NCBI RefSeq assembly: GCF_964275005.1
Contig: NC_092694.1
Span: 28,392,632 to 28,456,631 of the forward strand
Length of the DNA stretch: 64,000 nt
Origin: Diadema setosum
Lineage: Eukaryota; Echinodermata; Echinoidea; Diadematoida; Diadematidae
Direction: 5' to 3'
Of this stretch, positions 11,555 to 51,684 are shown piece by piece (within the stretch, counting starts at the first letter, position 1; the number at the start of each line of letters is the position of its first letter). The notes beneath the pieces are model-generated. The model was not told the DNA's origin. It ran no database searches and was given only the letters and a program-made list of their open reading frames with translations. The position numbers were made by a program, and so were the translations under genes.

Positions 11555-11720
11555 GCATCATTGGCTGAATTGAGCCCATAGTCTGCTCATGCGCGTTATT
11601 TGACACCGACTATATAAGCATAAAGACATTCAGCTCGAATACATCATTTTACGGAACTGCTGATGTTCCTGACCTATTGATATTGCTATCAATCGGTGCT
11701 TGGGAGTTCAACTGCCTTCG
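11555..11720 (+). promoter_or_regulatory. GPCR family promoter and leader exon, copy 2
   Basis: Shared module: CATTGGCTGAATT (inverted CCAAT), CTGCTCATGCGC at about 11583-11594 (NRF1-like), GACACCGACTATATAAG with the TATA box at about 11611. A conserved leader follows (CGAATACATCATTT ... GAGTTCAACTGCCTTCG) up to the splice donor gtaag at 11721. Transcription should start about 30 bp after the TATA box, giving a leader exon of roughly 80 nt. The same order recurs before copies 3, 4, 5 and at 51.5 kb. Confidence 0.85.
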
Positions 11721-12833
11721 GTAAGTTTTGCTATAGTTGATTAATAACGGCCCTAAGCGAAAGCTAGATATGATGTTTCATGTTTTTTAGCCTATGTTTT
11801 ATTTCTTTGAAATAACAATTTCCTTTAGAATACTGTATTCTGTATCTGTATCTGTATTCTTGTTACTGCATTTCGTTTGTTACATAGATGCTTGGAATAT
11901 TTTTTTTGGGGGGGGATATTTTGAGTTCCATAAGAAATTTAAAATTTTACGCTCATGGTGCTTTTTAAGTAGGCAAATTAACATGGGAGAATAATATTGC
12001 TCCAAAAATAGCTTTCCAAATATATTTGAGTGTATTCCATGACCTCTCAGCTTTTCCGCTGATCGATACAAAAGACATGTAAACAAATAACGTTTTACCA
12101 ACAAATGTCCAGAAGAGTTATCATTAATCATTTTTTTTTTACACCTAAGAAAAGTTGCTGCTTCAAAAATCAAATGTCATTCTCGAATATGATTTTATCC
12201 ATTTTTTTTTTTCATTTTGATGATACTTTATCGGTCTGTAAGATACCACAATGTTTTCAAATCTAAAGCGAACACTGAATGAATTGTAAAGGAAACCCAA
12301 GCTCGAATAATACACGAGGATTGATTGAAAAGCATCAACATCAGTAGAACACATTAATGAAAATTAGTATGAGGAAAACCGGACAATCGATCAAAAGGGA
12401 TACGAGATTACTGCAGTTCGTGACGTCAAGGAATAGACAATAATGGAAAGAAAATAAAGGGGCAACTCTTCAAAATTGCATTTTTCTAATGATTACGTAT
12501 TACAATGACTTGTTAATTCTTTCTGAAGGAGCAAAGTCAAGTGCCCTTTTATTATGCATGATAAACGACAATTTGTTGAGTTTTTATTAATTTTTTCTGT
12601 ATTAGTATATTGTCCATAAAAACGTCATAAAGTGTAGCAGTCTCCTTACAATCGAGCGAAATTTTCCTGAAAGTATTAGTGATGTGTTGTATCGACTTTA
12701 CCGTTTTGTATGTTTTTTCACTGAATCCGTATTTATATTTGGGCTTTGGTTTCCTTTTATGATCCTCTGATATCAGAACGTCTCATACGATTGAACTCCT
12801 CGTATTCAGTTTACCTTTTTATGTGATTTACAG
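11721..12833 (+). other. Leader intron of GPCR copy 2
   Basis: Runs from the donor gtaag at 11721 to the acceptor gtgatttacag ending at 12833. AT-rich, with poly-G and poly-T tracts and no gene inside. Confidence 0.7.
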
Positions 12834-12850
12834 GAAAAAGAAGAACAGAA

Positions 12851-13274
12851 GTGAGGAAACTTCCTACTTGGACGATCGTTCACCTGATTACATCTAGAAA
12901 TGCCCATCTTACAGTCAGAGCACAACTGGTTTTTTGGGGGGAATAATTTGCCAATTTAAAAAGTTATTCAGACGTTGAGGCAATCGACATTTTGACGACA
13001 CATATACGAACTTCGGCAAATTATCCAGTTTCTCCTCATTTCCTTTCCACTCAGTTCGAGAGGAGTCATTTACAAACCAAAACAACATCACATCACGATA
13101 AGAGCATTGCAATCAAATCGTTTTCACAAAATGGTTATGATCAGCAGTGAAAATATGACAGAAATCTATACAGACACCACAGAGATTGGTACGTCGAATT
13201 TCATCGCTCATAATGATGAAGAACCTGTCCTCCCCTAATCGCTTTGGAAGTTTCAGTCAGTTACATGGACATGG
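12851..13274 (+). pseudogene. Decayed ectodomain of GPCR copy 2
   Basis: The position of the family ATG reads GTG (12851), directly after the conserved acceptor and AAGAAGAACAGAA leader. The first 26 codons still resemble copy 1 (TWTIV, VRAQL), then a stop follows within about 32 codons and the frame is lost. An in-frame TAA at 13236-13238 cuts this part off from the intact 7TM frame. The ectodomain-coding part is therefore a relic. Confidence 0.8.
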
Positions 13275-14231
13275 GTGACTAATCCGCAACTAACAATGTC
13301 CATGCTGGGAATAGTAGGAAATTTGATCGTGATCTTGGTAGTATTCCAAAGGCGCCATACTTGCCGGTCAACCGATGTACTGATCGGTGCTTTGGCCGTT
13401 GCGGATTTCTTCACGTCAGTGTTCATGGTCCCACTGCCTACGCCGCTTAGGGTTCCTGAAACATGGCTAGGGAATGTCTACTGCAAGGTAATTTACACAT
13501 CCATGCTCATGTGGGTTTCAGTGGATGCCTCCATCTTCATTCTGACCTTGATTCCAATAGAAAGATACATTGCGATTGCCCACCCTCTTCATTTCAAGCG
13601 TCCTGTAACACGACAGAGAGTTGGGAAAGTTGTTGCCGTGACATGGATGATTGCGTTCATGGCAAACTTTTTCTTATTCTTTGTGGCTAGTGCCAAGGGC
13701 GATATGTGCACTGAGACATTTCAGTCACAGCTTGCCCAGGTTATGACAGGCTGTATGCTTTTCCTCGTCCAGTTTCTCATACCGGCTTTCATCATGCTTG
13801 TAGCACAAGCTCTCACTGCACTGGTACTCTATCGACAATCCCGCGGGAGGTTAGGAGAAGAGTCAAAATGCAACAACTCAAACCCGTCAGCTAAATATCT
13901 CGTGGCTAGAAAAAGGGTTCTCAAGATTCTCTTCCTTGTTGTTGTCGTTTTCTTCATCTCGTGGACACCAACACAGACGGGATATCTTTTGTTTAACTTT
14001 CTTGTTTTGCCAGCGTCCTATGTGGACACCGATCTTTATTATGCTCTAAATGTCCTAGCCTTCTGTAATTCCTGCGCAAATCCTGTCATTTACACGATTC
14101 GGAATTCTGAATTTCGTAAGGCGATAGGAGAATTGTTCAAATCAACCACCAGCACATCGGGAAAAACGGCTTTGTTCAGCGAAAAAGTAACAGGTAATAC
14201 AGATTTGACCATTTACGATGTCGATGTTTAA
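13275..14231 (+). CDS. Class A GPCR copy 2, intact 7TM core without ectodomain
   Basis: 318 residues with all class A landmarks: GN in TM1 (N16), AVAD in TM2 (D44), loop Cys pair C70 and C145, ERY at 96-98, Pro in TM5 (P170), SWTP in TM6 (W230, P232), NPVIY at 269-273, then an amphipathic helix 8 and a Ser/Thr-rich tail ending NTDLTIYDVDV. The only in-frame Met before TM1 is at 13275, leaving five residues outside the membrane. Paralogs have a signal peptide and about 150 extracellular residues. The unbroken 7TM frame, with broken DNA just upstream, suggests either a shortened working receptor or a recent pseudogene. It uses promoter 2 at 11.6 kb. Ligand unknown. Confidence 0.8.
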   Translation: MTNPQLTMSMLGIVGNLIVILVVFQRRHTCRSTDVLIGALAVADFFTSVFMVPLPTPLRVPETWLGNVYCKVIYTSMLMWVSVDASIFILTLIPIERYIAIAHPLHFKRPVTRQRVGKVVAVTWMIAFMANFFLFFVASAKGDMCTETFQSQLAQVMTGCMLFLVQFLIPAFIMLVAQALTALVLYRQSRGRLGEESKCNNSNPSAKYLVARKRVLKILFLVVVVFFISWTPTQTGYLLFNFLVLPASYVDTDLYYALNVLAFCNSCANPVIYTIRNSEFRKAIGELFKSTTSTSGKTALFSEKVTGNTDLTIYDVDV

Positions 14232-18639: not shown

Positions 18640-18839
18640 TCATATACCTGGACTTATCAAAAGCATTTGACACAACGGCACAATGGACCTGGTAATGTTA
18701 ATTCATAAACTTAACATGTACCAAGAACGGGGTCAAGCCCTGTTTTGGCTTACAAATTATTTGTAAAACCGTTGGCAATACTTGACTATTCAGTTTCGCT
18801 AGTCTTGGAATTCGACATTACATGCGGGTAGGGGGTTGC
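18640..18839 (+). mobile_element. LINE reverse transcriptase fragment, left half
   Basis: Translation gives YLDLSKAFDT, the catalytic motif A region of LINE reverse transcriptases, then KLNMY and ALFWLTNYL, with stops and frame changes. It ends just before where the GVPQG motif should follow; a matching continuation lies beyond the big foldback element at 26005. It is a decayed plain LINE copy. Confidence 0.75.
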
Positions 18840-20315
18840 AGAGCCCACTAATGTCAAAATCGCCCACTAATGTCAAAACAACCACTAATGTCATAACACG
18901 TCGACGACAAATGTCACAACAACCACTAATGTCATAACGCGTCGACGACAAATGTCAAAACAACCACTAATGTCATAATGCGTCGACGACAAATGTCAAA
19001 ACAACCACTAATGTCATAACACGTCGGCGACAAATGTCAAAATCGGATCAACCACTAATGTCATAACACGTCGACGACAAATGTCAAAATTTCCATTTTT
19101 ACTGCAAATGTCATAACACGTCGACGACAAATGTCAAAATCGGATTAACCACTAATGTCATAACACGTCGACGACAAATGTCAAAATTTCCAAATTTTCT
19201 GCAAAATGTCATGACGCGTCACAAGGGCGGATCGAGGAATTCCATGAAGGGGAGGCGCCTTTACAAAATCAAAGGCTGGAGCGTCCCTCGCCCCCCCCCC
19301 CCCATTTTCTTATTTTTATTTCTGTTGAGTTCACAAAATAAAGAGGGGGGGGCACTAAAGGGGAATGCGCCCCCTCTAAATCCGCGATTGCGTCAACCAC
19401 AAATATCAATATTGGATTAACCACAAATGTCATAACACGTCGACCACAAATGTCATATCGCGTCACAGGGGCGGATCCAGGAATTCCGTAAAGGGGGAGG
19501 GGCGTCTTTATAAAATCAAAGGCTGGCGCGACACTCTTTCCCCCCCCCCCCCATTCCTTATTTTTGTTTCTGTTGTTTTAACCGAATGATTATAGTGAGG
19601 GTGCACCAGAGGGGGATGCGGCCCCTCTCGATCCATCATTGCGTCAACCACAAACGGAAAAACTCATTGCTTGCATTACAAGGGCAGATCCAGGAATTCC
19701 ACAAAGGAGGGGGGGGGGAGGGGGCGCCTTTACAAAATGAAAGGCTGGCGCGACCCTACCCACTTTTCTTCTTCTTATTTCTGTTGTGTTGACAAAATAA
19801 AGACAGGGGGCACTAAGGGGGGGGGGGTGCGCCTCCTCTAAATCCGCGATTGCGTCAACTGCAAATGTCAATATTGGATTAACCACTAGTGTCATAACAC
19901 TTCGACCAAATGCGTTACAGGGGCGGATCAAGGAATTCCGTGAAGGGGGGGGGGGAGGGCTTTACAAAATCAAAGGCTGGCGCGACCCCCTTTTTTTCTC
20001 GTTTCTGTTGTTTTAACCTAATATAGTGAGAGTGCACCATGGGGGAAGCGCCCCCTCTCGATCCATCATTGCGTCAACCACAAGATTAATGGAAAAACTC
20101 ATTGCTTGCATTACAGGGGCGTATCCAGGAATTCTGTGAAGGGGAGGCGCCTTTACAAAATCAAAGGCTCGCGCGACACCGCCCCGTTTTCTTCTTTTCA
20201 TTTTCTCTTGTTTTAACAAAAAATAGAGAGGGGGAACCAATGGGGATGCGCCCCCTTTCGATCCATGATTGCGTCGACCACTTAATGACCAAACCCATTG
20301 CTTGCATTACAGGGG

Positions 20316-20461
20316 CGTATCCTGAGGGGCGTTTCATCAACGAGTTCGTCGGAGGTTTTCACCGACAAATTTGATATCAGCCAATCAGACGCAAGGATTT
20401 CAGTAGCTTTTAACAGTTGTCAGTGTAAATCACTGACAAAAAGTTTCATGAAACGGTCCCC
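20316..20461. mobile_element. MITE nested in a satellite unit
   Basis: About 140 bp with inverted ends: GGGGCGTTTCATCAACGAG at the left and TTTCATGAAACGGTCCCC at the right, with CACCGACAAATTTG and CACTGACAAA inside. It interrupts one GGATCCAGGAATTCC unit between its GTATCC and AGGAATTCC halves. Confidence 0.7.
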
Positions 20462-21333
20462 AGGAATTCCATGAAGGGGAGGCGCCTTTACAAAATGAAA
20501 GGCTCGCGCGACACCACCCCATTTTCTTCTTTTCGGGCATCGTGGGGGTGCGCCCCTCTCGATCCATGATTGCGTCAACCACAAAAAAATGACCAAACCC
20601 ATTGCTTGCATTACAGGGGCGTATCCAGGAATTCCGTGAAGGGGAGGCGCCTTTACAAAATCAAAGGCTCACGCGACACCACCCCATTTTCTTCTTTTCA
20701 TTTTCTCTTGTTTTTAACAAAATATATAGAGGGGGCACCATGGGGGATGCGCCCCCTCTCGATCCACGGTTGCGTCAAATACAAATGGCCAAACTCATTG
20801 CTTCCATTACAGGGGCGGGTCCAGGAATTCCGTAAAGGGGAGAGGGTGCACCTTTGCATAATTAAAGCCTGACGCATCATCACCCCATCTTTTTATCATT
20901 TATGTTGTTTTGAAGAAAAAAAAAATAGAGGGGGCATCAGAGGGGGATGCGCCCGTCTCGATCCGCGATTGCGTCAACCACAAAATGTCAAAACTCATTG
21001 CTTGCATTACAGGGGCGGATCCAGGAATTCTGTAAAGGGGAGGAGCCTTTACAAATTTAAAATCTGCCGCACCCCCTATTTTTCATTTCTGTTGTTTTAA
21101 CAACAACAGAAATGCTTGCTCATTGCTTGTATTATAGGAGCGGGTCCAGGAATTCCGTAAAGCGTAAAGGGGAGACGTCTTCTCAAAATGAAAGGTTGGC
21201 GCAATCCCCCTCCCCCTTATTAATATCTTTTTATTTCTTTTGTTTAAAGGACAGTTAAAGCGGCAGTCTTTAATTTTGTAAAGGAGCCTCCACTTTACGG
21301 AATTCCTGGTTCCTCCCCCTGTAATGCAAACAA

Positions 21334-21667
21334 TGGGTTTTGCCATTAACTTGAGGTTGACGCAGTCGTGGATCTAGAGGGGGACACGGTACCCCCTCCC
21401 CGTCTCTATTTTTGTTAACACAAAAGAAATTAGATGAAAAAAAAAAAAAGGCGAGGCAGTTTGCGCAACTTTTTGATTTTATAAACGCTTCTCTCCTTTA
21501 TGGGTTTTGCCATTAACTTGAGGTTGACGCAGTCGTGGATCTAGAGGGGGACACGGTATCCCCTCCCCGTCTCTATTTTTGTTAACACAAAAGAAATTAA
21601 CTGGAAAAAAAAAAGAAGGCGAGGCAGTTTGCGCAATTTTTTGATTTTATAAACGCTTCTCTCCTTT
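21334..21667. repeat. Recent 167-bp tandem duplication inside the foldback
   Basis: TGGGTTTTGCCATTAACTTG starts both copies (21334 and 21501). They are nearly identical through CGTGGATCTAGAGGGGGACA to AAACGCTTCTCTCCTTTAT. This is the youngest duplication seen in the array. Confidence 0.9.
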
Positions 21668-25490: not shown

Positions 25491-26004
25491 TGCCCCCCTC
25501 TCTTTATTTTGTGAACACAACAGAAATAAGAATAAGAAAATGGGGGGGGGGGCCTAGGGTCGCACCAGCCTTTGATTTTGTAAAGGCGCTTCCCCTTCAT
25601 GGAATTCCTCGATCCGCCCTTGTGACGCGTCATGACATTTTGCAGAAAATTTGGAAATTTTGACATTTGTCGTCGACGTGTTATGACATTAGTGGTTAAT
25701 CCGATTTTGACATTTGTCGTCGACGTGTTATGACATTTTCAGTAAAAATGGAAATTTTGACATTTGTCGTCGACGTGTTATGACATTAGTGGTTGATCCG
25801 ATTTTGACATTTGTCGTCGACGCGTTATGATATTAGTGGTTGTTTTGACATTTGTCGTCGACGCATTATGACATTAATGGTTGTTTTGACATTTGTCGTC
25901 GACGCGTTATGACATTAGTGGTTGTTTTGACATTTGTCGTCGACGTGTTATGACATAAGTGGTTGTTTTGACATTAGTGGGCGATTTTGACATTAGTGGG
26001 CTCT

Positions 26005-26085
26005 ACAGGGGTACCTCAAGATGTAAGCATTTATCAGTCAATGTTTGCATGAGTGATATCAAGTTTTCCCCCACTTCTTAATTTT
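26005..26085 (+). mobile_element. LINE reverse transcriptase fragment, right half
   Basis: GGGGTACCTCAAG encodes GVPQ, the reverse transcriptase motif that should follow the fragment ending at 18839. ATGAGTGATATC (MSDI) a little further fits the next part of the domain. This places the foldback insertion at the GVPQG motif. Confidence 0.6.
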
Positions 26086-26479: not shown

Positions 26480-26510
<31 letters not shown>

Positions 26511-26890: not shown

Positions 26891-26899
26891 GCGTATACA

Positions 26900-27064
26900 A
26901 TGATATCATTGGCTCAATTCAACACATACTCTGCTCATGCGAACAATCTGACGCCGAATATAAAGACTGAAGACATGTTGTACGAATACATCATTTCAAC
27001 GAAATGCGGATTCACGTGAACTGCGGATATTGCTAGTCTGTGCTCAGAAGGTCAGCTGCTTCGG
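26900..27064 (+). promoter_or_regulatory. GPCR family promoter and leader exon, copy 3
   Basis: TGATATCATTGGCTCAATTC, then CTGCTCATGCGAAC, then GACGCCGAATATAAAG with a weaker TATA box at about 26958. The leader GAATACATCATTTCAACGAA follows and ends GTCAGCTGCTTCGG before the donor gtaagg at 27065. It drives the only fully intact receptor. The NRF1-like box and TATA box are both slightly off the consensus of the other copies. Confidence 0.8.
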
Positions 27065-29008
27065 GTAAGGTTTGCTAGTTAATTTGCTTATACTGCAACA
27101 GATTACCGTACAGTAAAGAGAAACTGAACATTGTGGTGAATTATAATTTAGTATAATGTACAAAATTGCATTAAAACGAGAGTATTCATAATGCCTTAAA
27201 AGTAAAGAATTAATCAAATCGGATGTCATGAATTTTGCTATTAATTTCTACAACCTCGCTTATAGTGACGTTAGTCAAGGTAGTTTGTAGCATTTCATAT
27301 ATCGGTGGCGATATTTACTATCATTTTATTTTTATTTCAATTTTAGGAAGAATCTAAATGTATGAGAGTAGACATTTTTTTCTCAATCACATGACCGGAA
27401 TTATAAGAAGCAAAATAGATACCATTGAAAATTGAAATCCCCAACGGACAAGGTGTAGTCATAACCGATATCTTGTCTTTTAATAGTATCGACACATCAA
27501 GAGTCTCGTAAAAGACCCGGTATTTTGACACGTTAAAATGCCCTACCTATATCAAATGCCGTAAAGCTGTTGTTAGCTCCGACAGTTGTGAAAGAAAAGC
27601 TAGAGAGACGAAGACATGCGAGTCAGTGCACGACCCCTACTGAATAACTCAGCCGTGACTAGAATAAACTAGTCACTTTAAGCAATGAATAAGCTGCCAG
27701 TGCTTACATTCCAGAACATGCATGCATTGTTAACAGTGTTTTCCGTACAAGCTACCTATAGCTGATAGACAAATCCCGCAATGAAAGACGTAAATGTTCA
27801 GAATGATCTCCAAAGGCCCCTCGCTTCCCCTTGACTCTTCTCACTGATGGGTTGAATTGAATCGTAAAGACCTTCTACTCGCTAATTCTTTTGCGCTAAA
27901 AACAGCTTTATAGGAGGCGTTTGACAAAGACTAGAATTGTAAGAATGAGTTTATCTATAGCTATTAATGAAGGGCATTATTTTTGTTAGCTATACACACG
28001 CAGTTACATAACACCCAATTTTACCCAGTCCAATCGAACATCAGTGAACAGCACGTATGAAATTATGCGAAGCTTCTTGAAAATCGGAGGTGAAATTAAG
28101 AAAGGAATGACATTTGAAGTTTCCATTGTAGAGTTATATTGGTCGTAACCTCGGTGGACAAATATTAGTGGATAAAGTGCATATATGACCCCAGAAACTT
28201 CCCTATTTGTTCGTAAGCAAATATTCATAAAACAAAATCCCTGTGTCACAGCTATTATGCAGTCAAGCAGTTTCTACCGCAAAGAAACAAATAAGGGCGA
28301 AAGTTGTCAGTCTACCTTAAATCATGAGTTAACTTTAAACAAGAAAATTCGGTTGTCATCTCTTCAGTGGAAAAATTCTTACGGGCGTTATCATGAGAAA
28401 TATCACATTATTCGCATATGTAGTTTCTGGCAAAGTCACTATCTTTTTTTAAACAGTTTAACACAGGAATGTTTTTAAAGCCTATTCCTGTCTTTGCAAC
28501 TGACTGACAAATTGCCCTACATCGACGTAAATAAGCACAGGCTTGATCAGTGTTTTAGTAGTAGCCATGATAAAAAAGTCATGGGCGTACATACTCGACA
28601 TGCATACATATTACGCAGTACCCGCCGCATACTAGATCACTAAGGATACTAAGGATTAGAACCAACACCTGCTGTCGGGCGGAAGTTCGGTGGTCTATAT
28701 AGTAGAGATGACGCCTGTCTGGAGATCAGAAGGTCGTAGGTTCGCATCTTGCTGGAGTATGTACGCCCATGATTTGTTATCATGACTGCTACTAAAACAC
28801 TGATCAATTCAGTGCTTACTTACATCGATGTAGGGCAATTTGTCAATCAGTGGCAATGAAAACATCTCGACGGAAGAATTTCACGAATTTGAATATTCCT
28901 GTCTTGTTTCGATTTTGATGAAACTTTTGTCACGTTATTGATCCTCTGATATCATAACAGTCAAGTCAACTTTTTCTTATGTATCTTACATTATTCTGTT
29001 CTTTACAG
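27065..29008 (+). other. Leader intron of GPCR copy 3
   Basis: From the donor at 27065 to the acceptor (ttctttacag) ending at 29008. It is the longest of the family introns because it contains the tRNA-like foldback at 28495-28855. The rest is AT-rich with partial similarity to the intron of copy 1. Confidence 0.7.
28495..28855. mobile_element. Foldback element with a tRNA-like core
   Basis: Inverted arms of about 95 bp: ACTGACTGACAAATTGCCCT at the left and its near complement at the right, sharing TACATCGA, CACTGATCA, TAGTAG and CATGGGCGTACATAC words. The loop (about 28690-28760) looks like a tRNA-derived Pol III promoter: an A-box-like TATAGTAGAGATGACG and a B-box-like GGTTCGCATCT about 45 bp later. 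No protein. It could be a SINE captured by a MITE, or a hairpin family with an internal Pol III promoter. Confidence 0.7.
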
Positions 29009-29024
29009 AAAAAGAAGAACAAAA

Positions 29025-30431
29025 ATGAGGATACTGACAACTCAGGAGATCTTTTTCCTTATTATATCTGGAACGGTCCATTTTGCAGTGTCAGCACCGC
29101 CGACCAACACTACACCCGTTAAATGTTCTACCCCAAATACTACGAGGGCACCTGTTATCAACTCTAAAAGTCAGTCAGACATTAAGGACATCGAAGGCCG
29201 TTTGACGCCACATGCCCAACCTCTAGACAATGCTTCATATTTTACCCAGTTTCAAAAGAGCTACTCACAAATTGAAACAACCCCGTACTACGACGAAAGC
29301 GGTGAAATCAAGACATTTCCACGTAGGGATTTCATTATGTATAAAACTAACTATGAAAATCTGAGAAATATAAATGCAGATTCATTTGACATCGGTACGC
29401 CGGATTCTATCACGCAATATGATGAAGGGCCTTTAGTCTCCCAACCTCTTTCGATGTTTCAGTCAGTTACATGGACATGGGTAACGATTCCACAACTAGC
29501 AATGTCCATGCTGGGTATAGTAGGAAACCTGATCGTGATCATGGTGTTATTCCAACGGCGCCACACTTGTCGGTCGACTGATGCACTGATCGGTGCCCCG
29601 GCCGTTGCGGATTTCTTCACCTCAGTGGTTCCGCTACCTAGGTCTCTCAAGGTTCCTGGAACATGGTTAGGGAATGTCTACTGCAAAGTAGTTTACACGT
29701 CAATGCTAATGTGGGTTTCAGTGGATGCCTCCATTTTTACTCTGACCTTGATTCCAATAGAGAGATACATTGCAATTGCCCACCCTCTTCATTTCAAGCG
29801 TCTTGTAACACGGCAAAGGGTTGGCAAAGTTGTTGCCTTAACATGGATGTTCGCATTCATGACAAACGTCTTTTTATTATTTGTGGCTGGTGCAAAAGGC
29901 GACAAGTGCAGTGAGGCATTTCAGTCACGGCTTTCGCAGATTATCTCAGGCTCTATGCTTTTCTTCGCTAAGTTTCTTACACCGGCTGGCATCATGCTTG
30001 TAGCCCAGGCCCTCACCGCACCAGTGCTTCATCGGCAATCCCGCCGGAAGCTAGGAGAAGATTCACACAACCATAAGTCAAGCCCATCAGCTAAGCACCT
30101 TGTGGCAAGAAAAAGAGTTCTCAAGATTCTGTTTCTCGTTATCGCAGTTTTTCTCATCTCGTGGACACCAACACAGACGGCATACTTCTTGTACAACCTT
30201 CGTGTCTTGCCAAAGTCCTATTTGTACAGTCCTCTAAATTCGGCCTTTATTGTCTTAGCCTTCTGTAATTCTTGCGCAAATCCTGTAATTTACGCAATTC
30301 GAAATCCTGAATTCCGCAAGGCGATAGGCGAATTCTTCAAATTAACCACTAGCACATCGGGAAGAACAGCTTTGTTCAGCGAAAAAGTAACAAATCATAC
30401 GGAATCGGCAATTTGCAATGTCCATGTCTAA
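29025..30431 (+). CDS. Class A GPCR copy 3, intact
   Basis: 468 residues. Signal peptide 1-23 (hydrophobic, ending AVSA), ectodomain 24-150 rich in Ser/Thr/Asn with NTT and NAS glycosylation sites, seven membrane segments from about 153 to 425. Key residues: N168 in TM1, D196 in TM2, C220 and C295 (loop disulfide), ERY 246-248, P320 in TM5, W380-T-P382 in TM6, NPVIY 419-423, helix 8 and a short Ser/Thr tail. Two residues are missing in the TM2/loop 1 region compared with copies 1 and 2 (TSVVPLP against TSVFMVPLP). The start follows the acceptor by 16 nt. Family knowledge: a plasma-membrane receptor signalling through G proteins. Peptide-like ligands are plausible but not shown. Confidence 0.92.
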   Translation: MRILTTQEIFFLIISGTVHFAVSAPPTNTTPVKCSTPNTTRAPVINSKSQSDIKDIEGRLTPHAQPLDNASYFTQFQKSYSQIETTPYYDESGEIKTFPRRDFIMYKTNYENLRNINADSFDIGTPDSITQYDEGPLVSQPLSMFQSVTWTWVTIPQLAMSMLGIVGNLIVIMVLFQRRHTCRSTDALIGAPAVADFFTSVVPLPRSLKVPGTWLGNVYCKVVYTSMLMWVSVDASIFTLTLIPIERYIAIAHPLHFKRLVTRQRVGKVVALTWMFAFMTNVFLLFVAGAKGDKCSEAFQSRLSQIISGSMLFFAKFLTPAGIMLVAQALTAPVLHRQSRRKLGEDSHNHKSSPSAKHLVARKRVLKILFLVIAVFLISWTPTQTAYFLYNLRVLPKSYLYSPLNSAFIVLAFCNSCANPVIYAIRNPEFRKAIGEFFKLTTSTSGRTALFSEKVTNHTESAICNVHV

Positions 30432-33010: not shown

Positions 33011-33057
<47 letters not shown>

Positions 33058-33110
33058 GCGAAAATACTCAGTATGTACGTATAAGGGTGTTTATGTCTTA
33101 TTTTGTTTAG
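32452..33110. other. Upstream flank of GPCR copy 4
   Basis: Homologous in patches to the flanks at 42.6-42.9 and 51.1-51.5 kb (ATTTCAAAAAGAA, GCCTGATG, TGTACGTTATCATAA words). It holds a (TG)n tract at about 33000-33054. Confidence 0.6.
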
Positions 33111-33120
33111 AGCATGACAG

Positions 33121-33278
33121 AACTGGCTGAATTCAACCCATAATCTGCTCATGCGCATGGTATGTCGCCGACTATTTAAGCACATAGACATGCATTCGAA
33201 TACATCATTTTCGCGAAGTGCGGATGCACATGAACTGCTGGTATTGTCCATCTGTGCTCTGGAGTTCAGCTGCTTCAG
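33121..33278 (+). promoter_or_regulatory. GPCR family promoter and leader exon, copy 4
   Basis: CTGGCTGAATTCAACCCATA, CTGCTCATGCGCATGG, then GTCGCCGACTATTTAAG with the TATA-like box at about 33172. The leader GAATACATCATTTTCGCGAA ends GAGTTCAGCTGCTTCAG before the donor gtaggt at 33279. Confidence 0.85.
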
Positions 33279-34138
33279 GTAGGTAATGTTGGCTATTGCT
33301 CAAGCCTGCAATATAGATTGTCGTCTCTGAATAAAACGAAATTGAACATCTCATGATGACTGTACATAGTTCAAGCCTTCTGAAGACAAATGCTTACTTT
33401 TTGCGCATTATTATTATTAGATCATATCAATAGTATTGTTATTGTTTATTTGCCATACCAGATGGTTGTTCTATTTTTATAACTTGATACCCCAAGAAAT
33501 AAAAGCAATAACTCCTGACACTTTTGAACGAAGAAACTAACAAATCAATTCTTCATACATGTCATGTGTTCTGTTGCAATGCTGTCGTATAGTTAATCGA
33601 TTTAGGTCATAACACCTAGACTAATAAACGTTGGCAAACGTTTTTTAATGTTTTGATTCCATTACACTTTCAAATTACAAGGAATAAGCGAGGCTCTATG
33701 ATTTATAAGTTTTTGTAATGAAATAGAAACTTGTGTGAAAGCCTTTTTGATATACCTGTCATGACATATCACACATTTTCATGTCATGAAAGTAAATTTC
33801 GCAGTGATCCACTGGTCAAAGAAGAATTGTTAAGCATTCACACGATAATAATATCTGAATCGCTTTATAAACGTTTTGAAGAAATGTCACTGTTTCTTAA
33901 GAACCATTGTCATTAAAGGGTTCTTTGGCGTTTCGTTATTTACTTTCATGAAATGTCATCTGTTTATAGGATTTTACAACGTGTACAATGCGTTTAAAGG
34001 CAATTGAACATCTGATTTTACTGCGCTTTGATAATTTTCTGATATTCCGACAGGCGACGTGAGAAATACTCCTCATATCCATTTTACCAGAGTATGTGTT
34101 TTGTTGTTGTTGTTGTTGTTGATTTTACATGGAAACAG
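33279..34138 (+). other. Leader intron of GPCR copy 4
   Basis: 860 bp between the donor gtaggt and the acceptor ggaaacag ending at 34138. A (TTG)n run lies just before the acceptor (about 34100-34121). An ATG at 34129 falls inside the intron and is unlikely to be the start. Confidence 0.65.
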
Positions 34139-34146
34139 GAAGAAAC

Positions 34147-35448
34147 ATGAAGATATCAGGAACTCGGACAATCGCACTCCTTGTCATATCTATAGCAGTC
34201 CGTGTTATAATCTCAGCACAGCCGGTTAACTCTACAGCTGTTCGATATTCAACCCCCAAGAATGTGAGGGCATCAGCTGTCAACTTTAAAAGTAATTCAG
34301 CCACTGAAGCCTTCGACAGCAATTTGACAACATATACACAACCTGTAGATAATGTTCCAGCTTCTACTCAGTTCGGAAACAGTCATTTGCGTATCGACAA
34401 AGGCGTTCAAATCAAGTCATCTACTGGAATCTATACAGAGACTGTAGAGATGAGAATGCCTAATTTTACAGCGCAAAATGATGAAGAGCCAACCGTCCTC
34501 CAACCGCAATGGAAGTGGCAGTCAGTTACATGGACATGGGTGACGATTCCACAACTGGCAATGTCTATTCTCGGAATAGTAGGAAACCTGACAGTGATCC
34601 TGGTGTTATTCCAAAGGCGCCACACTTGCCGGTCAACTGATGCACTGATCGGTGCTCTGGCCGTTGCGGATTTCTTGACGTCAGTGTTCATGGTTCCGCT
34701 GCCTACGCCACTCAGGGTTCCTGACACATGGTTAGGGGACGTCTACTGCAAGGTAGTTTACACGTCCATGTTAATGTGACTTTCAGTGGATACCTCCATA
34801 CTCACTCTGACTTTGATTCCATTGGAGAGATACATTGCGATTGCCCACCCTCTTCATTTCAAACGTGTTGTAACGCAGAAGAGAGTTGGCAAAGTTGTTG
34901 CAGGGACATGGATGATTGCATTCTTGGCAAACGTTTTCTTACTCTTTGTTGCTAGTGCGAAAGATGACAAGTGCACTGAGGCATTTCAGTCACGGATTTC
35001 GCAGATTATCTCAGGCTGCATGCTTTTCTTCGCTAAGTTTCTTATACCGGCTTTAATCATGCTTTTAGCCCAAGTTTTCACCGCAATAGTGCTCCATAGA
35101 CAGTCCCGCCTGAGACTGGGAGAAGATTCAAAATGCAACAATTCAAACCCTTCAGCTAAGTACCTTGTGGCAAGGAAAAGTGTCCTCAAGATTCTGTTCC
35201 TTGTTGTCGCCGTTTTTCTCATTTCTTGGACACCAACACAAACGGGATATCTCTTGTACAACCTTCATGTTCTGCCACCGTCCTATTTGTACCACCCTTT
35301 AAATTCCGCCTCAGTTGTTCTGGCCTTCTGCAATTCTTGCGCAAATCCTGTGATTTACACGATTCGCAATCCTAAATTCCGCACAGCAATCGGAGAATTG
35401 TTCAAATCAACCACTAGCACAAGAGCAGCTTTGTTCAGTGAGAAATAA
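34147..35448 (+). pseudogene. Class A GPCR copy 4, one nonsense codon in TM3
   Basis: Start chosen at the ATG eight bases after the acceptor, matching the paralogs. Signal peptide ending ISAQ, ectodomain with NST and NLT sites, then TM1 (GIVGNLTVILVLF), TM2 (ALAVADFL), loop Cys in DVYCK. The Trp codon of the paralog motif MLMWVS is TGA (34777-34779). The frame then continues without any break: LERY in place of IERY, SWTP in TM6, NPVIYTIRN in TM7, ending ALFSEK at 35448, about 14 residues earlier than copies 2 and 3. One point change thus separates it from a full receptor, so it is a young pseudogene or recoded. Confidence 0.87.
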
Positions 35449-38502: not shown

Positions 38503-38681
38503 GCGCCAGTGTGTTATACTGCCCTCTTACGGGCAGTGTTTGAGATGTATGTTATATTGTTGTTGTACAACCTTCGCCCCTTTCGGCCGGCAGTTTGTGT
38601 TGCGTGAGCATAATAAAGATTGCTTAAACCTTAACTATTGTGACTGGTTATCCATCCCCGAACGATGTTCTTTTAATGGCG
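38503..38681 (+). repeat. 3' LTR
   Basis: Second copy of the LTR, preceded by the purine tract. Confidence 0.8.
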
Positions 38682-40947: not shown

Positions 40948-40984
<37 letters not shown>

Positions 40985-41832: not shown

Positions 41833-42939
41833 ATAATACATAAATGAAATGTGTCAATAAGGCATATTTAGCACAGAACGTTCAAGAGAGTTTTGACAAG
41901 AGAATCTCTCTTCGGGGAAGCCGATTAGATTTCTATTCGACTGACTGAATTTTTGTAATTACACAGGTCTTATCATGTACATAAATTTATGATTGTCTTC
42001 ACACCTTGATTTAGCACATCTTTAATTTCAATTACACATTTATCCTTATGGGAGAAAAAAAAAAGAAGTAAACTGGAAATATTGACAATTTCTCAGATAA
42101 TGTCGGTTTTACTTTTCATCTTAAGTGCTTACAAAAAAAAAATGAAAATGAATGTAGTTGAAAAAGACACAACCTGCTGCATTTTCACGGTTTGCGCAAA
42201 TCATATTGTTGTACTTGAGCAACATACCGATCAAGTATTAAGTGAATATAAATTCTGGTCAATAATAGAATATACAGTCTATTTTCCATAATTCTTTTTC
42301 CACCTTAATTTCTACCGATTCACAGATAGTCTTTCAGGAGAACGAGGGAATATTTGCAACGCAAATTAACATTAATTCCACATTCTCTCACATTCCCCAC
42401 TCGGAAGGATAATTTTCTTTCGCTATTGAGAGTTCCTTTGAATAAGCTTGCTTTACTCTTCTCTCTTTTTCACATCTACTCACGTACCTAAAGTGCAATG
42501 GCGATCATAGCATACAATAGCACATTGGATGATGTAGTTCCTTTATTTTTTGTATTCATTATTGATTGATCCATTGCATTTAAAATAAAAGATGAAAGGA
42601 TATGATATCGATTTCTTAAGGAAATGAATGGCGTTCATGTTCAAATATTTCACTGAAATAAAAAGAAGTGCTCCATGCCGTATGCCTGATGTACCTACGA
42701 CGCATTCTTTGCAGTGCTGTGTCTGGCTTTGATGTTACGTTATACAATTTTATGCAGACAACTTTGCTAATGAGAGGTAATACTAAATTATCGGATCGTT
42801 AATTTAATAGTCCTTAGTATACCAGATGGTAAGATGCAGGAATAATTTTGTTCTTGCGTGAAGTGCTGTAATGATTACGTGGTGTGTGTGTAAGTGTATG
42901 TGTTTATGTATAAGTTTATCATGCAAAACTGTGTTTGGC
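41833..42939. other. Upstream flank of GPCR copy 5 (duplicated at 50.5-51.5 kb)
   Basis: Collinear with 50520-51510: AGACACAACCTGCTG, TTTCACGGT, CTACCGATTCACA, AATAAGCTT and GTACCTA words occur in the same order. No gene. A short (TG)n tract lies at about 42878-42905. Confidence 0.7.
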
Positions 42940-42945
42940 CTATGA

Positions 42946-43114
42946 TATCATTGGTTGAATTCAACATATATTCTGCTCATGCGCATTGTTTGACGCCGAC
43001 TATATAAGCCTTATGAAATGCAGGTCGTATTCATCATTTCAACGAAGAAGTGCGAATATCTGTGATCTGCTGATCTTGCTATTAATCTGTGCTTACGGAG
43101 TTCAGCTGCTTCGG
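42946..43114 (+). promoter_or_regulatory. GPCR family promoter and leader exon, copy 5
   Basis: GATATCATTGGTTGAATTC, CTGCTCATGCGCATTG, GACGCCGACTATATAAGC with the TATA box at about 43000. The leader TCATCATTTCAACGAAG runs to GTTCAGCTGCTTCGG and the donor gtaagg at 43115. It is nearly the same as the orphan module at 51.5 kb. Confidence 0.85.
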
Positions 43115-44421
43115 GTAAGGTATTGTAGATACGTAGATAAAGCCTGTAATAGGATACTCGCTCTGAACAGGAGATGTATTGCATATTTCACAGTTAGCCC
43201 ATTTTCTTCATTTCTCAGAAATAATAGGTTTATTTTGTATTATTAGATTATAGGATCGTATTGCTACTGTGTTTCATCACTTACAATAACATGTTCCTGG
43301 AACATTTTAAATATTTTGAATACCTCAAGGGAAAAAAAAACACAAGGAAACATTGCACTCATGATGCCTTTGAAGAGAGGAACTGCAGCGAAGCCGCTAT
43401 AAATATATTCTGCTGGAACGGTCTACAACCTTGTTGTGGTATTGGTAATTAGGGAGCTTATTCAATTTTAAAGAATAATGGAGATAGCTTGTTACTATTT
43501 TTCTTTCATTTCAATTTAAAGGGATAGTATAGTACTGGTGGAGATGAGGAATGGGCTTTTAACTTTTTGAGAAATACCATGAAACCACTTATGAAATGAT
43601 ACAAAGCATTCCATTTTAAGAGAAATTCAAAGTTTACTAGATGAAAATCCATTTTGGAATGGCTGTGACATCCAAGAGCAAGGTAAAGCAAAGCGATCCT
43701 AATAAAAAGTAGGTTCCATCTTTTGTTAGGATTTCTCTGTTTTGAATAGCTCAGATATTTCACAATCAGTTTTCATCAAAGGAACGTTAAATCTCTCATG
43801 GAATTACATACATTTCATATATCATAAGAGCTTTCTCATTATCTCAACCAAAACTATACGCTCCCTTGGAGGTGTATCTAATAGTATGATAGCAGACGAA
43901 CATGAGACAAGAATTAAGACAACGTTTCAGAGTGTCATAAAAGGGGGTCGGTGAAATTGATGGCTTTGTAAATGGTATCCCCAACAGAAATTCTCTAGTC
44001 GGTTTTATAACCAATGCTATTTCTTTTTAATTTTGGCATATCAAAACTTCATATGAAAGACTCGTATCTGCATTTGTCAAAATGCTCGGTAAAGTGTAGT
44101 CTCTTTCAAAGGCCGTCAATCCATCTAACCTTTTATCTGTTTTCATTGGAGAACATATTGACTGTATGCTTACTGGCCTACTTCATATGCATATGCAGTT
44201 TTGAGCAACTGCTCTGTGAAGAACAGGTGTCTTTTTAAAGGCCCATTGTTATCTCGTTTTGGATTTTGACGAAACTTCCTTTGTTTGTATGATTGTACCA
44301 TGTCTTTGAAAGTTGAAAGTGAACCTGAGTATATCGAAATGCACATTAATGATCGTCTGACGTGACATTAATTGAGCAACTCCTCATATCCATTTATGAT
44401 ATCATAATTCATATTTTACAG
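43115..44421 (+). other. Leader intron of GPCR copy 5
   Basis: From the donor at 43115 to the acceptor (atattttacag) ending at 44421. It contains the full dispersed repeat at 43519-43830. Confidence 0.7.
43519..43830. repeat. Dispersed repeat, uninterrupted copy
   Basis: AAAGGGATAGTATAGTACT, GGGCTTTTAACTTTTTGAGA, AATGGCTGTGACATCC and TTGAATAGCTCAGATATTT occur in the same order as in the split copy at 15.8-17.2 kb. Confidence 0.8.
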
Positions 44422-45406
44422 AAAAAGAACAAAAATGAGGATGATGGCAGTTCGGACGATCATTCTTCTTATCATATCTGGAACGGTCCATCTGACAGTC
44501 AAAGGAGAACCGGACACTACTACGGCTGTTCAATATTCTAACCAAAACACAGTGGGGACATCAGTTGTCAGCTTTAAGAGCGATTCAGACATTGAGGTTA
44601 TCGAAAATGTTCCAGTTTCGCCTCAGTTCGAAAAGAGTTATTCATATATGGGTATAATCCCACAACTCGACAAAGGAGGTCAAATTCCGACATTTCAACA
44701 AAAGAATTTTAATATCTTTGAAATTGATAGCGAAAATCTGACAGAAATCGATACAAAGACAATTGAGATAGGTACGCCGAATTCTATAGCGGAAAATGAC
44801 AAAGAATCTACTGTCCCCCTCGTGCTTTGGAAATGGCAGTCAGTTACATGGACATGGGTGACGATTCCACAACTAGCAATGTCCATTCTAGGAATAGTGG
44901 GAAACCTGATCGTATCGTGATACTGGTGCTATTTCAAAGGCGCCACACTTGCCGGTCAACTGATGCACTGATTGGTGCTCTTGCCGTTGCGGATTTCCTG
45001 ACGTCGGTGTTCATGGTCCCACTGCCTACGCCTGGCAGCATTCCAAGAACGTGGTTAGGGAATGTTTACTGCAATGTACTTTACCCTTCAATGCTCATGT
45101 GGATTTCAGTGGATGCCTCCATCTTCATTCTGACCTTGATACCGATAGAGAGATACATAGCGATTGCCCACCCTCTTCATTTCAAGCGTATTGTAACACG
45201 GCAGAGAGTTGGCAAGGTTGTTGCAGTGATATGGATTCTAGCGTTTTTGGCAAACATTTTCTTATTCTTTGTGGCTGAAGCGAAGGGTGACACGTGCACT
45301 GAGATTTTTCATTCGCAGCTTGCCCAAATTATAACAGGCATTATGCTTTATCTCGTTCAGTTTCTCATACCGGCTTTCATCATGCTTGTAGCCCAGGCTC
45401 TCAATG

Positions 45407-45465
45407 CACTGGTGCTCCATCAGCAATCACTGGCGTAGCCAGTGATTGTTGATGGAGCACCAGTG
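45407..45465. repeat. 28-bp palindrome at the GPCR/element junction
   Basis: The arm at 45407-45434 (receptor sequence CTGGTGCTCCATCAGCAATC plus ACTGGC) is copied in inverted form at 45438-45465, with one mismatch and a 3-nt centre. The receptor sequence was thus copied back to back into the element end. Confidence 0.95.
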
Positions 45466-47827
45466 ACCGCCCCCATCGCCTCCCCCCCCCCCCCCCCCTG
45501 AGATTTGGACCGGGGATTTGGGAGGCGAAAAAAAAATGCGTGTATACTGTATGCATGCGCATGAAGCGGGTCTCCTTTGCAACCTTTCATCAAATAAGAT
45601 ATTTCTTTTAATATTTCACTCAAAGTGTGCACCAGATCGTGATCGGCTATCCCCCTCCCAAACCCTCCCCCTCTGTGCCTCCTTCCCTAGCTTAATACAC
45701 TTTTTAGATTTCAAAAAAAAATATGAATAATTCTGAGTGCACAAGACTTATCACTTATATTTCGAGAACTCAAGGTTCCCTTATGTATAAGGGGAATTTC
45801 CCCTTTTAATCGACCCTTTCCTCCCTCAGTCCCCCCCCCCCCAAAAAAAAATCCGTTTTTTTTTTCCTTTGGTGATTTCCCAATAATGTTGATTCCATCA
45901 AAATATGCGTAAACGAGATATCTCAATTCCAACCTTAAAAAGGCAAAAGCTCCATCGGAAGGGAAGGGTGGAGATAACACTCGCCCACGCCTTCTCCCTT
46001 CTCGCCCGCCCCTCCCCCCCCCCCCCTTCCGCCATGCATAGAAGTAGACTGTGACTATACCCAGATCGCTTTATTTCAATTCTAAAAACGCAAAAGCTCC
46101 GCGAGCGGGAGGGGGAATCCCCCTTCCCCTAAGCTCTACCTCACTAGACTTTATACATACACACAGATGGTGCACATTCGGAATAAAAGCTAAATTCCGT
46201 GATTTTAACACTTATGAAAAAGTATTGCACCAAAAATTTGCACCAGATCGCTGAATTTCAGGTCTGAAAACGAAAAATCACCTTCGTGTGGGAGGGGATA
46301 TGCCCCTATCTACACCCTCGTGTGCATGTTTTTTTTTTTTTTTTTTTGATTGCTGAACTGCAGACAGCGTTCATGATATTCAGTGTAAGAATTGATACAA
46401 CAAGATTATTTAAATGATACCATTTTATAGGCAAATTGTTCAATAATAATCTACATTAAAATATATTGCAACCTTAAACAAGTGGGACTGTTTCAACTCG
46501 TTAAAACACGCAAGAACATGCATCAAATTGCACCATTTGCGACATCAAAATGCAAAAAGTTCTCATCGCGGGAGGGGGGACACCCCCCTCCCACACCCTC
46601 CCCTCCCCCCTTCGCTCGCTCGGCTCGCTCGGGTTCAGTCGCGTTCATGATATTCAGTGAAAAGAATCAATACAAGAAGATTATTTAAATGATACCATTT
46701 TATATAATAGGCAAATTGTTCAATAATAATCTACATCAAAATATACTGCTACCTTAAACAAGTGGGACTGTTTCACGTCGATAAAACGCGCAAAAACATG
46801 CATCAAATTGCACCATTTACAATATCAACATGCAAATAGTTCTCACCGTGGGAGGGGGGACACCCCCCTCCCACACCCTCCCCTCCCCCGTCGCTCGCTC
46901 CGCTCGCTCGGGTTCAGTCTTGTTCATGATATTGAGTGAAAAGAATTAATACAAGAAGTGTATTTAAATTATACCATTTTATAGGCAAATTGTTCAATAA
47001 TAATCTACACTCAAATATACTGCTATACCTTAAACAAGTGGGACTGTTTCACGTCGATAAACGCGCAAAAACATGCATCAAATTGCACCATTTGCAACAT
47101 CAAAATGCAAAAAGTTCTTCAACACCTCCCCTCCAACACCCTCCCCTCCCCCCTCGCTCGCTCCGCTCGCTCGGGTTCAGTCGCGTTCATGATATTCAGT
47201 GAGAAGAATTAATACAAGAAGTGTATTTAAATGATACCATTTTATAGGCAAATTGCTCAATAATAATCTACACTCAAATATACTGCTATACCTTAAACAA
47301 GTTGGACTGTTTCACGTCGATAAAACGCGCAAAAATATGCATCAAATTGCACCATTTGCAACATCAAAATGCAAAATGTTCTTACTGTGGGAGGGGGACA
47401 CTCCCCTCCCACACCCTCCCCTCCCCCTCGCTCGCTCCGCTCGCTCGGGTTCAGTCGCGTTCATGATATTCAGTGAGAAGAATTAATACAAGAAGTGTAA
47501 TTAAATGGTACCATTTTACAGGCAAATTGTTCAATAATAATCTACACTCAAATATTCTGCTACCTTAGACAAGTGGGACTGTTTCACGTCGATAAAACGG
47601 GCAAAAACATGCATCAAATTGCACCATTTACAACATAAAAATGCACAAAGTTCTTACCCCCTCTTACCCTTCTTACCCTTAGTTCTTACCCTTCTTACCC
47701 CGTTCTCACACCCTCCCCCCCCCCCCCCCTCGCTCGCTCCGCTCGCTCGGGCTCGGTCGCTTCGCCCCCTCGCAGACTAACCGCCCCCCCCCCCCCCCGC
47801 CAAGATGAAATCCTGGCTACGCCGTTG
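45430..47827. mobile_element. hAT-like non-autonomous element with about 270-bp internal repeats
   Basis: Inverted ends GGCGTAGCCAG (45432-45442) and CTGGCTACGCC (47813-47823). It is flanked by imperfect 9-bp copies TCAGCAATC and TCAACAATC, close to the 8-bp duplications of hAT elements. Inside are about five tandem copies of a 263-279 bp unit starting near 46411, 46686, 46965, 47228 and 47502. Each carries AAACAAGTGGGACTGTTTC, GCAAAAACATGCATCAAATT, a C-rich run and CGCTCGCTCCGCTCGCTCGG. No transposase. Confidence 0.8.
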
Positions 47828-48194
47828 TCAACAATCCCGCCGGAGGATAGGAGAGGAATCAAAATGCAGCAACTCAAACCCATCCACTAAGTACCTGATA
47901 GCTCGGAAGAGGGTTCTCAAGATTCTTTTCCTTGTTGTCGTCGTTTTCCTCACCTCATGGGCACCAACACAGACGGCATATCTCTTGTACAACCTTCGTG
48001 TTCTGCCAACGTCCTATTTGTACAGCCCTATAGGTTCCGCTCTAACTGTCCTGGCCTTCTGTAATTCTTGCGCAAATCCTGTAATTTATACGATTCGGAA
48101 TCCTGAATTCCGCAAGGCGATAGGAGAATTGTTCGAATCTACCACTAGCACATCGGAGAGAACGGCTTTGTTCAGCGAAAAAAATGACAGGTAA

Positions 48195-49985: not shown

Positions 49986-51405
49986 TTATGAATGGCGGCC
50001 TCCATGTCCCGCTGCACTCGTAAAGGGTTTTGTTAATTTCTTGACGTCATATTTTATTTAAAAAAGACGGCTGTTCGGGATCGAATATCGATGAAGCAAA
50101 TCAGTCAGCCTAAACTTTTTACCTCGCGATTTCTCAGTGGCGCGAATATCTTATGATAAGTCACATTAAAAATTTGTTTTAGGACACATTTCCCTCTGCT
50201 TTGACACCTTCTTTTATATGATTTTCTTGATCTTAATGTCTCGTTCACCATACTTTAAGATCTAAGAGCCTTTTGGAATTCTTTATGGTAGTTAGTATTG
50301 TTGTCTTTTGACGTTACGCATGGGAATGTTTTCATTTAAATCATTGTTTCTCTTCATGTTCTACTGAGACTTTATTGAAGTTTCTGAGTCACAATAAAGA
50401 GTTCATTAAGTCATAAGCCAATTATACATCAATGTGTCGATGTTAAATAGGTCAATTACTCACAAAGGAAAAACACAACCTTAACGACAGGTAAAGAAGT
50501 ATAGTGACGACTTATCTACAACCGATTGCATTTTGATTCGACAGACTGAAATGGAAATTCACGCAGGTCTTATCACGTGCATAACCCCATGATTATCTTG
50601 AATAATCACATTTACAATTTTAATAACACATTTATCGGCATGGGAGGAAAAATAAGTAAATTGCCAGTATTCTGAAAAGAAAAACATGCTTGTTACATAA
50701 TGGCGGTTTTCCTTCTCATCTTAATCGCTTCACAAAAATGATGTATTTTTCCTCCAATTGCAAAAGACACAACCTGCTGAATTTTCACGGTCCGCAGGGT
50801 GCGCAACAATCAATTCCTATCCATTCTACCGATTCACATGACATGCAAGATAGTTTTTTAGTAGATCCGGGGAGCTGAGTATTGAGATTCCCTGAGGAAA
50901 TATCTGCGACTCCAACGTAACATTATTCACATTCCATCACATTTCACCTGGAGGGAAAGACTCTTTCGCTATTAAAATTAGATGGAATAAGCTTACTTTC
51001 CACTTCTCACTTTTTTCACTTGTACTCAAGTAGCGTTGCTCTTTGATATAACGCAATGGCGATTTAAGTGTACGTTGGCAAAATTGACAAAAAATATAAT
51101 GTGGGGGTTTCTTCCTTTTTTGTAGTTGATGTATTATTGATCCATCGCATTTCAAAAAGAAGATGATAATGATGAATAGAGAAAAGACAGATCGTGAAGT
51201 ATAATTTTGCATCATGTGGATTGCCAGATGTACCTAGTGGCGTATTCTTGCGAGTGCTGTGCCTGGCTTTGCTGTTACGTTGTATGAACTGACATAATTT
51301 TGATAATCATAGGCAATGTTAAATTACGCGATTGTTAATTTCATAATCCAAAGCTTTACCATGTGGTAAGGTGCATGAATGATTTTGGTTTTGCTTGATA
51401 ATGTT

Positions 51406-51449
<44 letters not shown>

Positions 51450-51500
51450 TGTTTATGTCTATGTGTGTATGTATATTCCCTTGGCAACATGTATAACTGC
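49986..51500. other. Duplicated upstream flank of the sixth GPCR unit
   Basis: 50255-50460 matches about 39690-39870, and 50520-51500 matches about 41925-42940. It is followed by a (TG)n tract at about 51403-51450. No gene. Confidence 0.7.
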
Positions 51501-51511
51501 AGTGTCTGGCG

Positions 51512-51684
51512 TGTGATATCACTGGCTGAATTTAACCCATGCTTTGCTCATGCGCGTCATTGACGCCGACTATTTAAACCTTAAGATATGCAGGTCGAAT
51601 GCATCATTTCAACGAAGAAATGCGGATGTGTGCGAACCGCCCATGTTGCCATTAATCTGTTCTTACGGAGTTCAGCTGTTTCGG
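51512..51684 (+). promoter_or_regulatory. Orphan GPCR family promoter and leader exon (sixth)
   Basis: TGATATCACTGGCTGAATTT, TTTGCTCATGCGCGTC, GACGCCGACTATTTAAACC, leader GCATCATTTCAACGAAGAAA, then GAGTTCAGCTGTTTCGG and the donor gtaagg at 51685. All parts are kept, but no receptor sequence follows in the remaining 12 kb of the window. Homology to the copy-5 intron stops at about 51765, where an inserted LINE tail seems to begin. Confidence 0.8.

Follow-up and report, generated by a model that had tools for sequence, protein, structure and literature searches.

Does each receptor of a tandem gene family carry its own copy of one and the same promoter? The question is raised by a stretch of the genome of the sea urchin Diadema setosum, here called the window (64,000 nucleotides, C10:28392632-28456631; C10, C16, C26, C2 and C19 are contigs of the same genome assembly), in which a promoter-plus-leader module recurs among genes for G protein-coupled receptors (GPCRs). 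Our answer, which we consider probable, is that a promoter of NF-Y/NRF1-like type has been duplicated together with each receptor. In the model proposed here, the tandem unit would consist of the promoter, a non-coding first exon of ~80 nt, an intron of ~0.6-2 kb and a class A seven-transmembrane (7TM) receptor in one exon, and it would duplicate as a whole, every new receptor thereby inheriting the core promoter. This promoter would act through an inverted CCAAT, a palindrome of NRF1/P3A2 type in which one mismatch is fixed, and a TATA-like box; transcription would start ~30 bp past the TATA-like box, where a TCAT word is conserved, the transcript would be spliced from a GTAAG-type donor to a point just before the receptor ATG, and each receptor would be transcribed wherever its promoter is active. 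The anatomy of the unit, the pairing of modules with receptors, the slow evolution of the modules across the array relative to flanks and synonymous sites, and the return of the CCAAT-CATGCGC pair in a distant cluster are observed in the DNA sequence; from these we infer that the units are transcribed and spliced, where transcription starts, which factors bind and that the tissues of expression are shared.

The sequence-only reading of the window had described five modules (M1-M5) with a fixed order of elements. All five are recovered by an nhmmer profile with scores of 180-189 (E < 1e-54 for each), and nothing else in the whole window lies above the inclusion threshold; because the profile was built from these same five, the scores speak for the coherence of the modules and are not an independent discovery. 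The order of elements and the splice donor are as described, and AG precedes all four acceptors that had been proposed (12834, 29009, 34139 and 44422). The shared words hold in part: CTCATGCGC is exact in four of the five modules, M2 differing at the last base, CGCCGAC occurs in only three, and the inverted CCAAT (ATTGG), which had been assigned to all five, is present in M1, M2 and M4, M3 and M5 having CTGG at this position. Clustering of invariant columns among the five is not significant (P 0.06-0.08). The module pattern exceeds chance over the wider copies and in the genome-wide patterns considered below, not within the five window modules alone. Three of the five modules are each preceded, at a distance of 31-54 bp, by the end of a (GT)n-like tract (window 11452-11515, 32995-33054 and 51402-51472), and such a tract is possibly a recombination site.

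A search of the genome, which had been suggested as a check, did yield further copies. The genome-wide searches covered 912.7 Mb in 102 contigs; two of them used the modules, and among the best 40 of the 51-52 candidates of each, matches are confined to C10 28.33-28.44 Mb and C16 15.76-16.07 Mb. In C16:15.74-15.94 Mb all 24 modules (two of them partial) precede a same-strand receptor at 624-1964 bp, a 25th receptor being cut by the end of the examined stretch. The receptors stand in tandem arrays, each with a single coding exon, and 19 of these 24 have an open frame of at least 445 residues counted from the ATG; the open ones have a mean dN/dS of 0.27 (171 pairs of 19) and are under purifying selection. 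The idea that the leader is trans-spliced or mobile was discarded by inference, as each C16 module lies 0.6-2.0 kb before its own receptor. Many of the leaders hold an upstream open reading frame, about five codons long (e.g., window 11663-11680); as a candidate leader element it was set aside as too weak, a closed one being held by 28 of the 40 leaders and, with a wider cut, by 35 of 40, against 29.7 +/- 2.8 in 200 shuffles (maximum 38).

Over the array, the modules are conserved beyond their surroundings. Information per column (40 copies, bins of ten) peaks at 1.75 bits at GCTCATGCGC; the CCAAT word, the donor and the columns that follow the presumed start have ~1.5-1.6 bits, and the flanks 0.65-1.0. 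For 28 units, compared in 378 pairs, mean identity is 0.775 from CCAAT to TATA (the core) and 0.770 in the leader, compared with 0.713 at four-fold degenerate sites; outside the module it is 0.553 in the 60 bp upstream and 0.555 at the intron start. The four-fold sites are exceeded by the core in 320 of the 378 pairs and by the leader in 304, the unit pairs not being independent. This set included mis-framed codons of one window receptor, R4, and a repeat without it shifts the means by at most 0.003 (351 pairs: core 0.772, leader 0.770, four-fold sites 0.713, upstream 0.552, intron start 0.554; core above four-fold sites in 294 pairs, leader in 284). Partition rates on one tree of 24 C16 units are 0.89 for the core, 0.83 for the leader, 1.19 for four-fold sites and 1.26 for codon position 3, followed by 1.95 for the intron start and 2.61 for the upstream flank, where poor alignment may raise the rates. 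The module rate is ~0.7 of the synonymous rate and 0.3-0.5 of the flank rate.

Parts of the promoter recur upstream of distant receptors. Receptors 50-58% identical to R2, the one window receptor with an open frame, occur elsewhere in the genome (best 133 of 932 candidate matches, which underlie all counts of listed receptors given here), and a separate cluster at C10 7.13-7.28 Mb holds receptors ~52% identical in protein. The upstream DNA of one receptor was read at each of two loci, L051 (C10 7.25 Mb) and L052 (C16 16.14 Mb). L051 has TCATTGGCT, ACGCATGCGCA, TTTATAA and a donor-like GTGAGT; L052 has GCGCATGCGT, AATATAAAG and a donor-like GTGAGT, and no CCAAT in this upstream DNA. A module profile from 38 of the 40 copies gives a weak partial match to L051 (E 0.013) and no match of any weight to L052; at both loci the leader has been lost and just the promoter words are left.

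Genome patterns were composed after reading these two loci. The pattern CATTGGCTN{8,30}CATGCGC has 48 matches in the genome, as against one for the reversed control: 26 lie in the two arrays, seven in the C10 7.13-7.28 Mb cluster, and 15 elsewhere, none of the latter, judged by eye, near a receptor among the matches listed. Each of the seven in the distant cluster stands 1.2-1.9 kb ahead of a same-strand receptor 7TM match. A second pattern, ATTGGN{10,35}GCATGCGCN{10,35}TATAA, has 24 matches against four reversed, and three fall in the same cluster, two of them new, at 2.1-2.2 kb before a receptor match. Combined, the two patterns mark nine of the 12 listed receptors of this cluster, eight of the nine (the exception being 7254137) not having been seen beforehand. 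The third, GCGCATGCGN{10,39}TATAAA, has 92 matches, two of which stand ~1.1 kb before a same-strand 58% receptor, where 0.017 would be expected in all: C16:16144131, the pattern's own design source, and C26:31073, which is new. Its reversed control was inflated (3300) and useless. Motifs common to divergent subfamilies are thus found ahead of nine of 12 listed receptors in the 7-Mb cluster, and are weak beyond it. The matches to the first pattern measure 36 bp in all 26 array copies and 26-27 bp in all seven of the distant cluster, the CCAAT and CATGCGC boxes being 9-10 bp closer there, about one helical turn; both bound proteins would presumably have to face the same side of the helix. Seven ATTGG-GCATGCGC-TATAA matches of equal length were also observed on one strand of C19:24.34-24.98 Mb, 84-129 kb apart and away from listed receptors, and are perhaps another tandem family or a repeat.

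The inverted CCAAT is one that we take to be of NF-Y type, and the names TATA and initiator are likewise ours by assumption. ATTGG is found in 32 of the 40 modules, including three of the five in the window, and each of its positions is kept in 34-40 of the 40. The second box is a palindrome resembling the site of NRF1, which binds GCGCNTGCGC, and sea urchin P3A2 is named as an NRF1 homologue (PMC10810270). The full GCGCNTGCGC does not occur in the modules, which have one fixed mismatch: the commonest word is CTGCTCATGCGCAT, and in 39 of 40 copies the fifth position of this 14-mer is T. The remaining box positions from 2 to 12 are kept in 36-40 of 40 copies, and the TGCGC half-site (positions 8-12) is intact, at 36-39 of 40 copies per position. 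The palindromes of L051 and L052 have one mismatch each, namely a position-3 change and its mirror. The affinity of human NRF1 is reported to fall ~7-fold when the G at position 5 of ATGCGCATGCGCAT is replaced by T, and ~4-fold when that at position 3 is replaced by A (PMC10810270). The genome has an Nrf1 DNA-binding domain in four pieces, close to one another at C2:41416036-41420624 and taken to be one gene.

A number of observations weigh against a conserved promoter of this kind. CATTGG is exact in 30 of the 40 copies and ATTGG in 32, the TATA-like words vary among copies, and the fixed departure from the NRF1 consensus may mean another factor. It is conceivable, although we rather doubt it, that the promoter is shared and that its CTCATGCGC box is bound by a factor other than NRF1/P3A2 which prefers T at the mismatch, since this T is all but fixed at a position where human NRF1 prefers G (PMC10810270). 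However, the palindromes of L051 (a 52% receptor) and L052 (58%) mismatch elsewhere, with the type of change that costs human NRF1 the smaller, ~4-fold loss (PMC10810270); what the modules, L051 and L052 have in common is the NRF1-type palindrome and not the T, and a locus with the Nrf1 domain is present in the genome.

Further points on the same side concern conservation and recurrence. The excess over four-fold sites is modest (0.77 vs. 0.71). When the C10 and C16 copies of four modules are compared, 10 of 682 sites differ (in the core alone, 2 of 277), and the modules are no slower than introns (77/5088), upstream regions (43/2122) and 3' flanks (51/3112) pooled (P 0.88), in a test that, like the clustering test on the five modules, has little power. 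Three of the 12 listed receptors of the 7-Mb cluster lack the CCAAT-CATGCGC pair, the GCGCATGCG-TATAAA combination marks only one of 11 listed receptors at C16 16.07-16.14 Mb, this one being its design source and the other ten unmarked, and no strict match to the three patterns was seen by eye near the remaining listed 38-53% receptors. Moreover, cluster copies are related and each pattern was designed on one member, which makes binomial values overstate significance; these are not used as probabilities, because related copies were treated as independent and design-source matches were counted.

Could the likeness of the modules be due to recent duplication of whole units, with no promoter selection required? 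That C10 and C16 modules differ as much as neighbouring DNA, and that the invariant columns of the five window modules are not clustered beyond chance, would fit this explanation, and so would the correlation of module with codon-3 distances (Mantel r 0.46, 10 of 9999 permutations), which indicates that units tend to duplicate whole. We nevertheless consider it unlikely, given that on the same tree the rate of flanks and intron starts is two to three times that of the modules, and that the CCAAT-CATGCGC pair is kept in the 7-Mb cluster, where L051, the sole member read, has a leader that cannot be aligned. Selection on a shared promoter, as the sequence-only reading had proposed, is supported by the array, whose modules exceed flanks, intron starts and four-fold sites, and by the pair kept in the distant cluster. 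For this window in particular the proposal finds no support, the C10-C16 differences in modules (10/682) being on a par with the 1.5-2% of neighbouring DNA and the receptors mostly broken.

The receptors themselves are class A (rhodopsin) GPCRs, PF00001 being matched by all 12 that were scanned (R2 and 11 from C16). Among the window frames, R1 scores 143.6 and R2 130.4 bits (cut-off 30.5); R0 matches in two pieces (23.2 and 97.5 bits) and the first piece of R3 reaches 33.6 bits. ERY, SWTP and NPVIY motifs are present in the receptor alignment, and the closest solved structures to R2 are the TAAR9, beta-1 adrenergic and mu-opioid receptors (E 1e-24 to 1e-22). Residue 3.32, counted by eye from the cysteine of transmembrane helix (TM) 3, is not Asp, and therefore amine binding is not indicated. 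Five receptors lie in the window (Table 1), one of which, R0, is served by a module just outside it; four are broken and R2 alone is open. The earlier claim of a whole receptor after each of the first four modules proved wrong for R1, R3 and R4, and R2, although open, has a shortened TM2, with two residues missing and one Leu-to-Pro change relative to its C16 copy. No receptor was found 3' of M5 by tblastn over the remaining 12.3 kb, to 64000, and Rfam (gathering scores) and ARAGORN gave no matches over the window.

Table 1. Receptors (R) and modules (M) in and next to the window. Positions are those of the window unless a contig is named; receptor exon limits are taken from open frames and splice words.
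Feature	Position	Strand	Remarks
M0	C10:28391862-28392030		Serves R0; locus L007; 602-770 bp upstream of window start
R0	1308..2760	+	Also delimited as 1324-2760; stop between TM2 and TM3; absent from the earlier list
M1	11546..11733	+	Inverted CCAAT 11560-11564; TGCTCATGCGC from 11584; TATATAAG 11611-11618; leader; donor GT at 11721
R1	12834..14231	+	Start codon lost (C16 counterpart too); stop before TM1 in window copy only
M2	26897..27077	+	Box ends CTCATGCGA
R2	29009..30431	+	Open, 468 aa from ATG 29025
M3	33108..33290	+	CTGG at CCAAT position
R3	34139..35448	+	Stop in TM3
M4	42936..43127	+	Profile match
R4	44422..48182	+	Frameshift near 44914; split by ~2.4-kb insertion
M5	51508..51697	+	CTGG at CCAAT position

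From 1 to 45.4 kb the window is colinear, in inverted orientation, with C16:15884786-15843960, the aligned blocks differing at 622 of 33,768 bases (1.84%). The C16 counterparts of R0, R2, R3 and R4 are open and that of R1 shares the lost start; with its counterparts mostly open, the C10 set is therefore the more decayed, and the window is a partly decayed copy of part of the array. The dN/dS between C10 and C16 for R0-R3 decides nothing, with only 5-11 differences each, and that of R4 vs. C12 was dropped, frames being mixed at the frameshift. It is quite possible, if not the reading we prefer, that the C10 block and the C16 array are two haplotypes of one locus, the former placed on a second scaffold, and that the broken receptors are null alleles: this level of substitution would also suit heterozygosity, and insertions are present or absent between C10 and C16. 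However, other receptor clusters seem to be single-copy among the matches listed, so that the assembly looks haploid and duplication is favored, there is no N in the window at the array end, and identity falls to 83-87% past 47.8 kb, after which colinearity stops. The choice concerns the origin of the block and is independent of the promoter reading.

Several insertions and repeats were observed in the window. The insertion that splits R4 (window 45429-47827, 2.4 kb) consists to about one half of 274-bp tandem repeats (46367-47658). Two others have no C16 equivalent: one of 7.2 kb at 18837-26007, with inverted ends of ~1.3 kb (81% identity), tandem repeats and a short target duplication, and one of 2.7 kb at 35988-38681, in which an open frame of 389 aa matches nothing in Pfam at E 0.001. 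An open frame at 9279-10055 (minus strand) has a GIY-YIG domain, presumably of the type known from Penelope-like elements. After M5, three overlapping or adjoining frames at 54025-55847 (minus strand), one with a reverse transcriptase domain, would represent a broken LINE-like element. A young dispersed repeat extends from ~57478 to 60000, perhaps further, and has 22 near-full matches elsewhere at 95-98% identity (best 46 of 2010 candidates); the right flank of the window was therefore rejected as a locator of the homologous locus.

Tandem chemoreceptor genes with a near-start promoter conserved within subfamilies are known from the mouse V1R family, and the present arrays are similar in this respect and in having common motifs across divergent subfamilies (PMC1955453 and PMC3247230). 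Over the array the promoter is more conserved than its flanks, as in V1R, which is not seen between C10 and C16. The two differ in that the cassette here is compact, with a CCAAT, a TATA-like box and a word resembling the NRF1 site within ~170 bp, whereas the motifs named for V1R and olfactory receptor (OR) genes are sites of O/E-like and repressor-like type, in promoter regions of ~1 kb; moreover, expression of a single receptor is known in the mouse (PMC1955453 and PMC3247230).

Among echinoderms, the surreal-GPCR and OR-like families are likewise expanded, mostly single-coding-exon class A 7TM receptors in tandem, with reported expression in tube feet, pedicellariae and oral tissues (PMC7042368, PMC5442662 and PMC10855541). 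The surreal-GPCR motif LxxPxYxxxxxLxxxDxxxxxxxxP, whose conservation differs among clades (PMC7042368), agrees with our TM2 rows, by eye, in its LxxxDxxxxxxxxP half for most of them and not in its LxxPxY half. The words "promoter" and "intron" are absent from the main text of PMC7042368 and PMC5442662, and a search of open-licence PMC papers, judged by title and opening of the abstract, found no description of the promoter of echinoderm receptor arrays. Shared promoters of tandem chemoreceptors (mouse V1R) and echinoderm receptor arrays are known; a promoter for such arrays would be new.

NRF1 targets are typically housekeeping genes, as opposed to the receptor genes here. Like the targets of NRF1 (P3A2, EWG), the modules have a palindrome similar to GCGCATGCGC a short way upstream of where transcription presumably starts, and unlike them they have one fixed mismatch, of the type that weakens human NRF1 ~7-fold, and a TATA-like box (PMC10810270). 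A choice of one receptor per cell is possible. We can imagine, as a long shot, that a weak CpG-containing NRF1 site, with T at the G preferred by human NRF1, and an NF-Y site on one helical face would yield low output such that few copies fire per cell, which would amount to a promoter-encoded sparse choice of receptor, separate from the vertebrate and insect systems and kept in at least two subfamilies.

To our knowledge, the regulation of large families of chemoreceptor-like genes is poorly understood beyond vertebrates and insects. In such a family, co-regulation and receptor choice would become directly testable with a compact cassette that has candidate factors and is present in separate clusters, and the cassette may also help in searching for non-coding first exons, which can escape gene finders.

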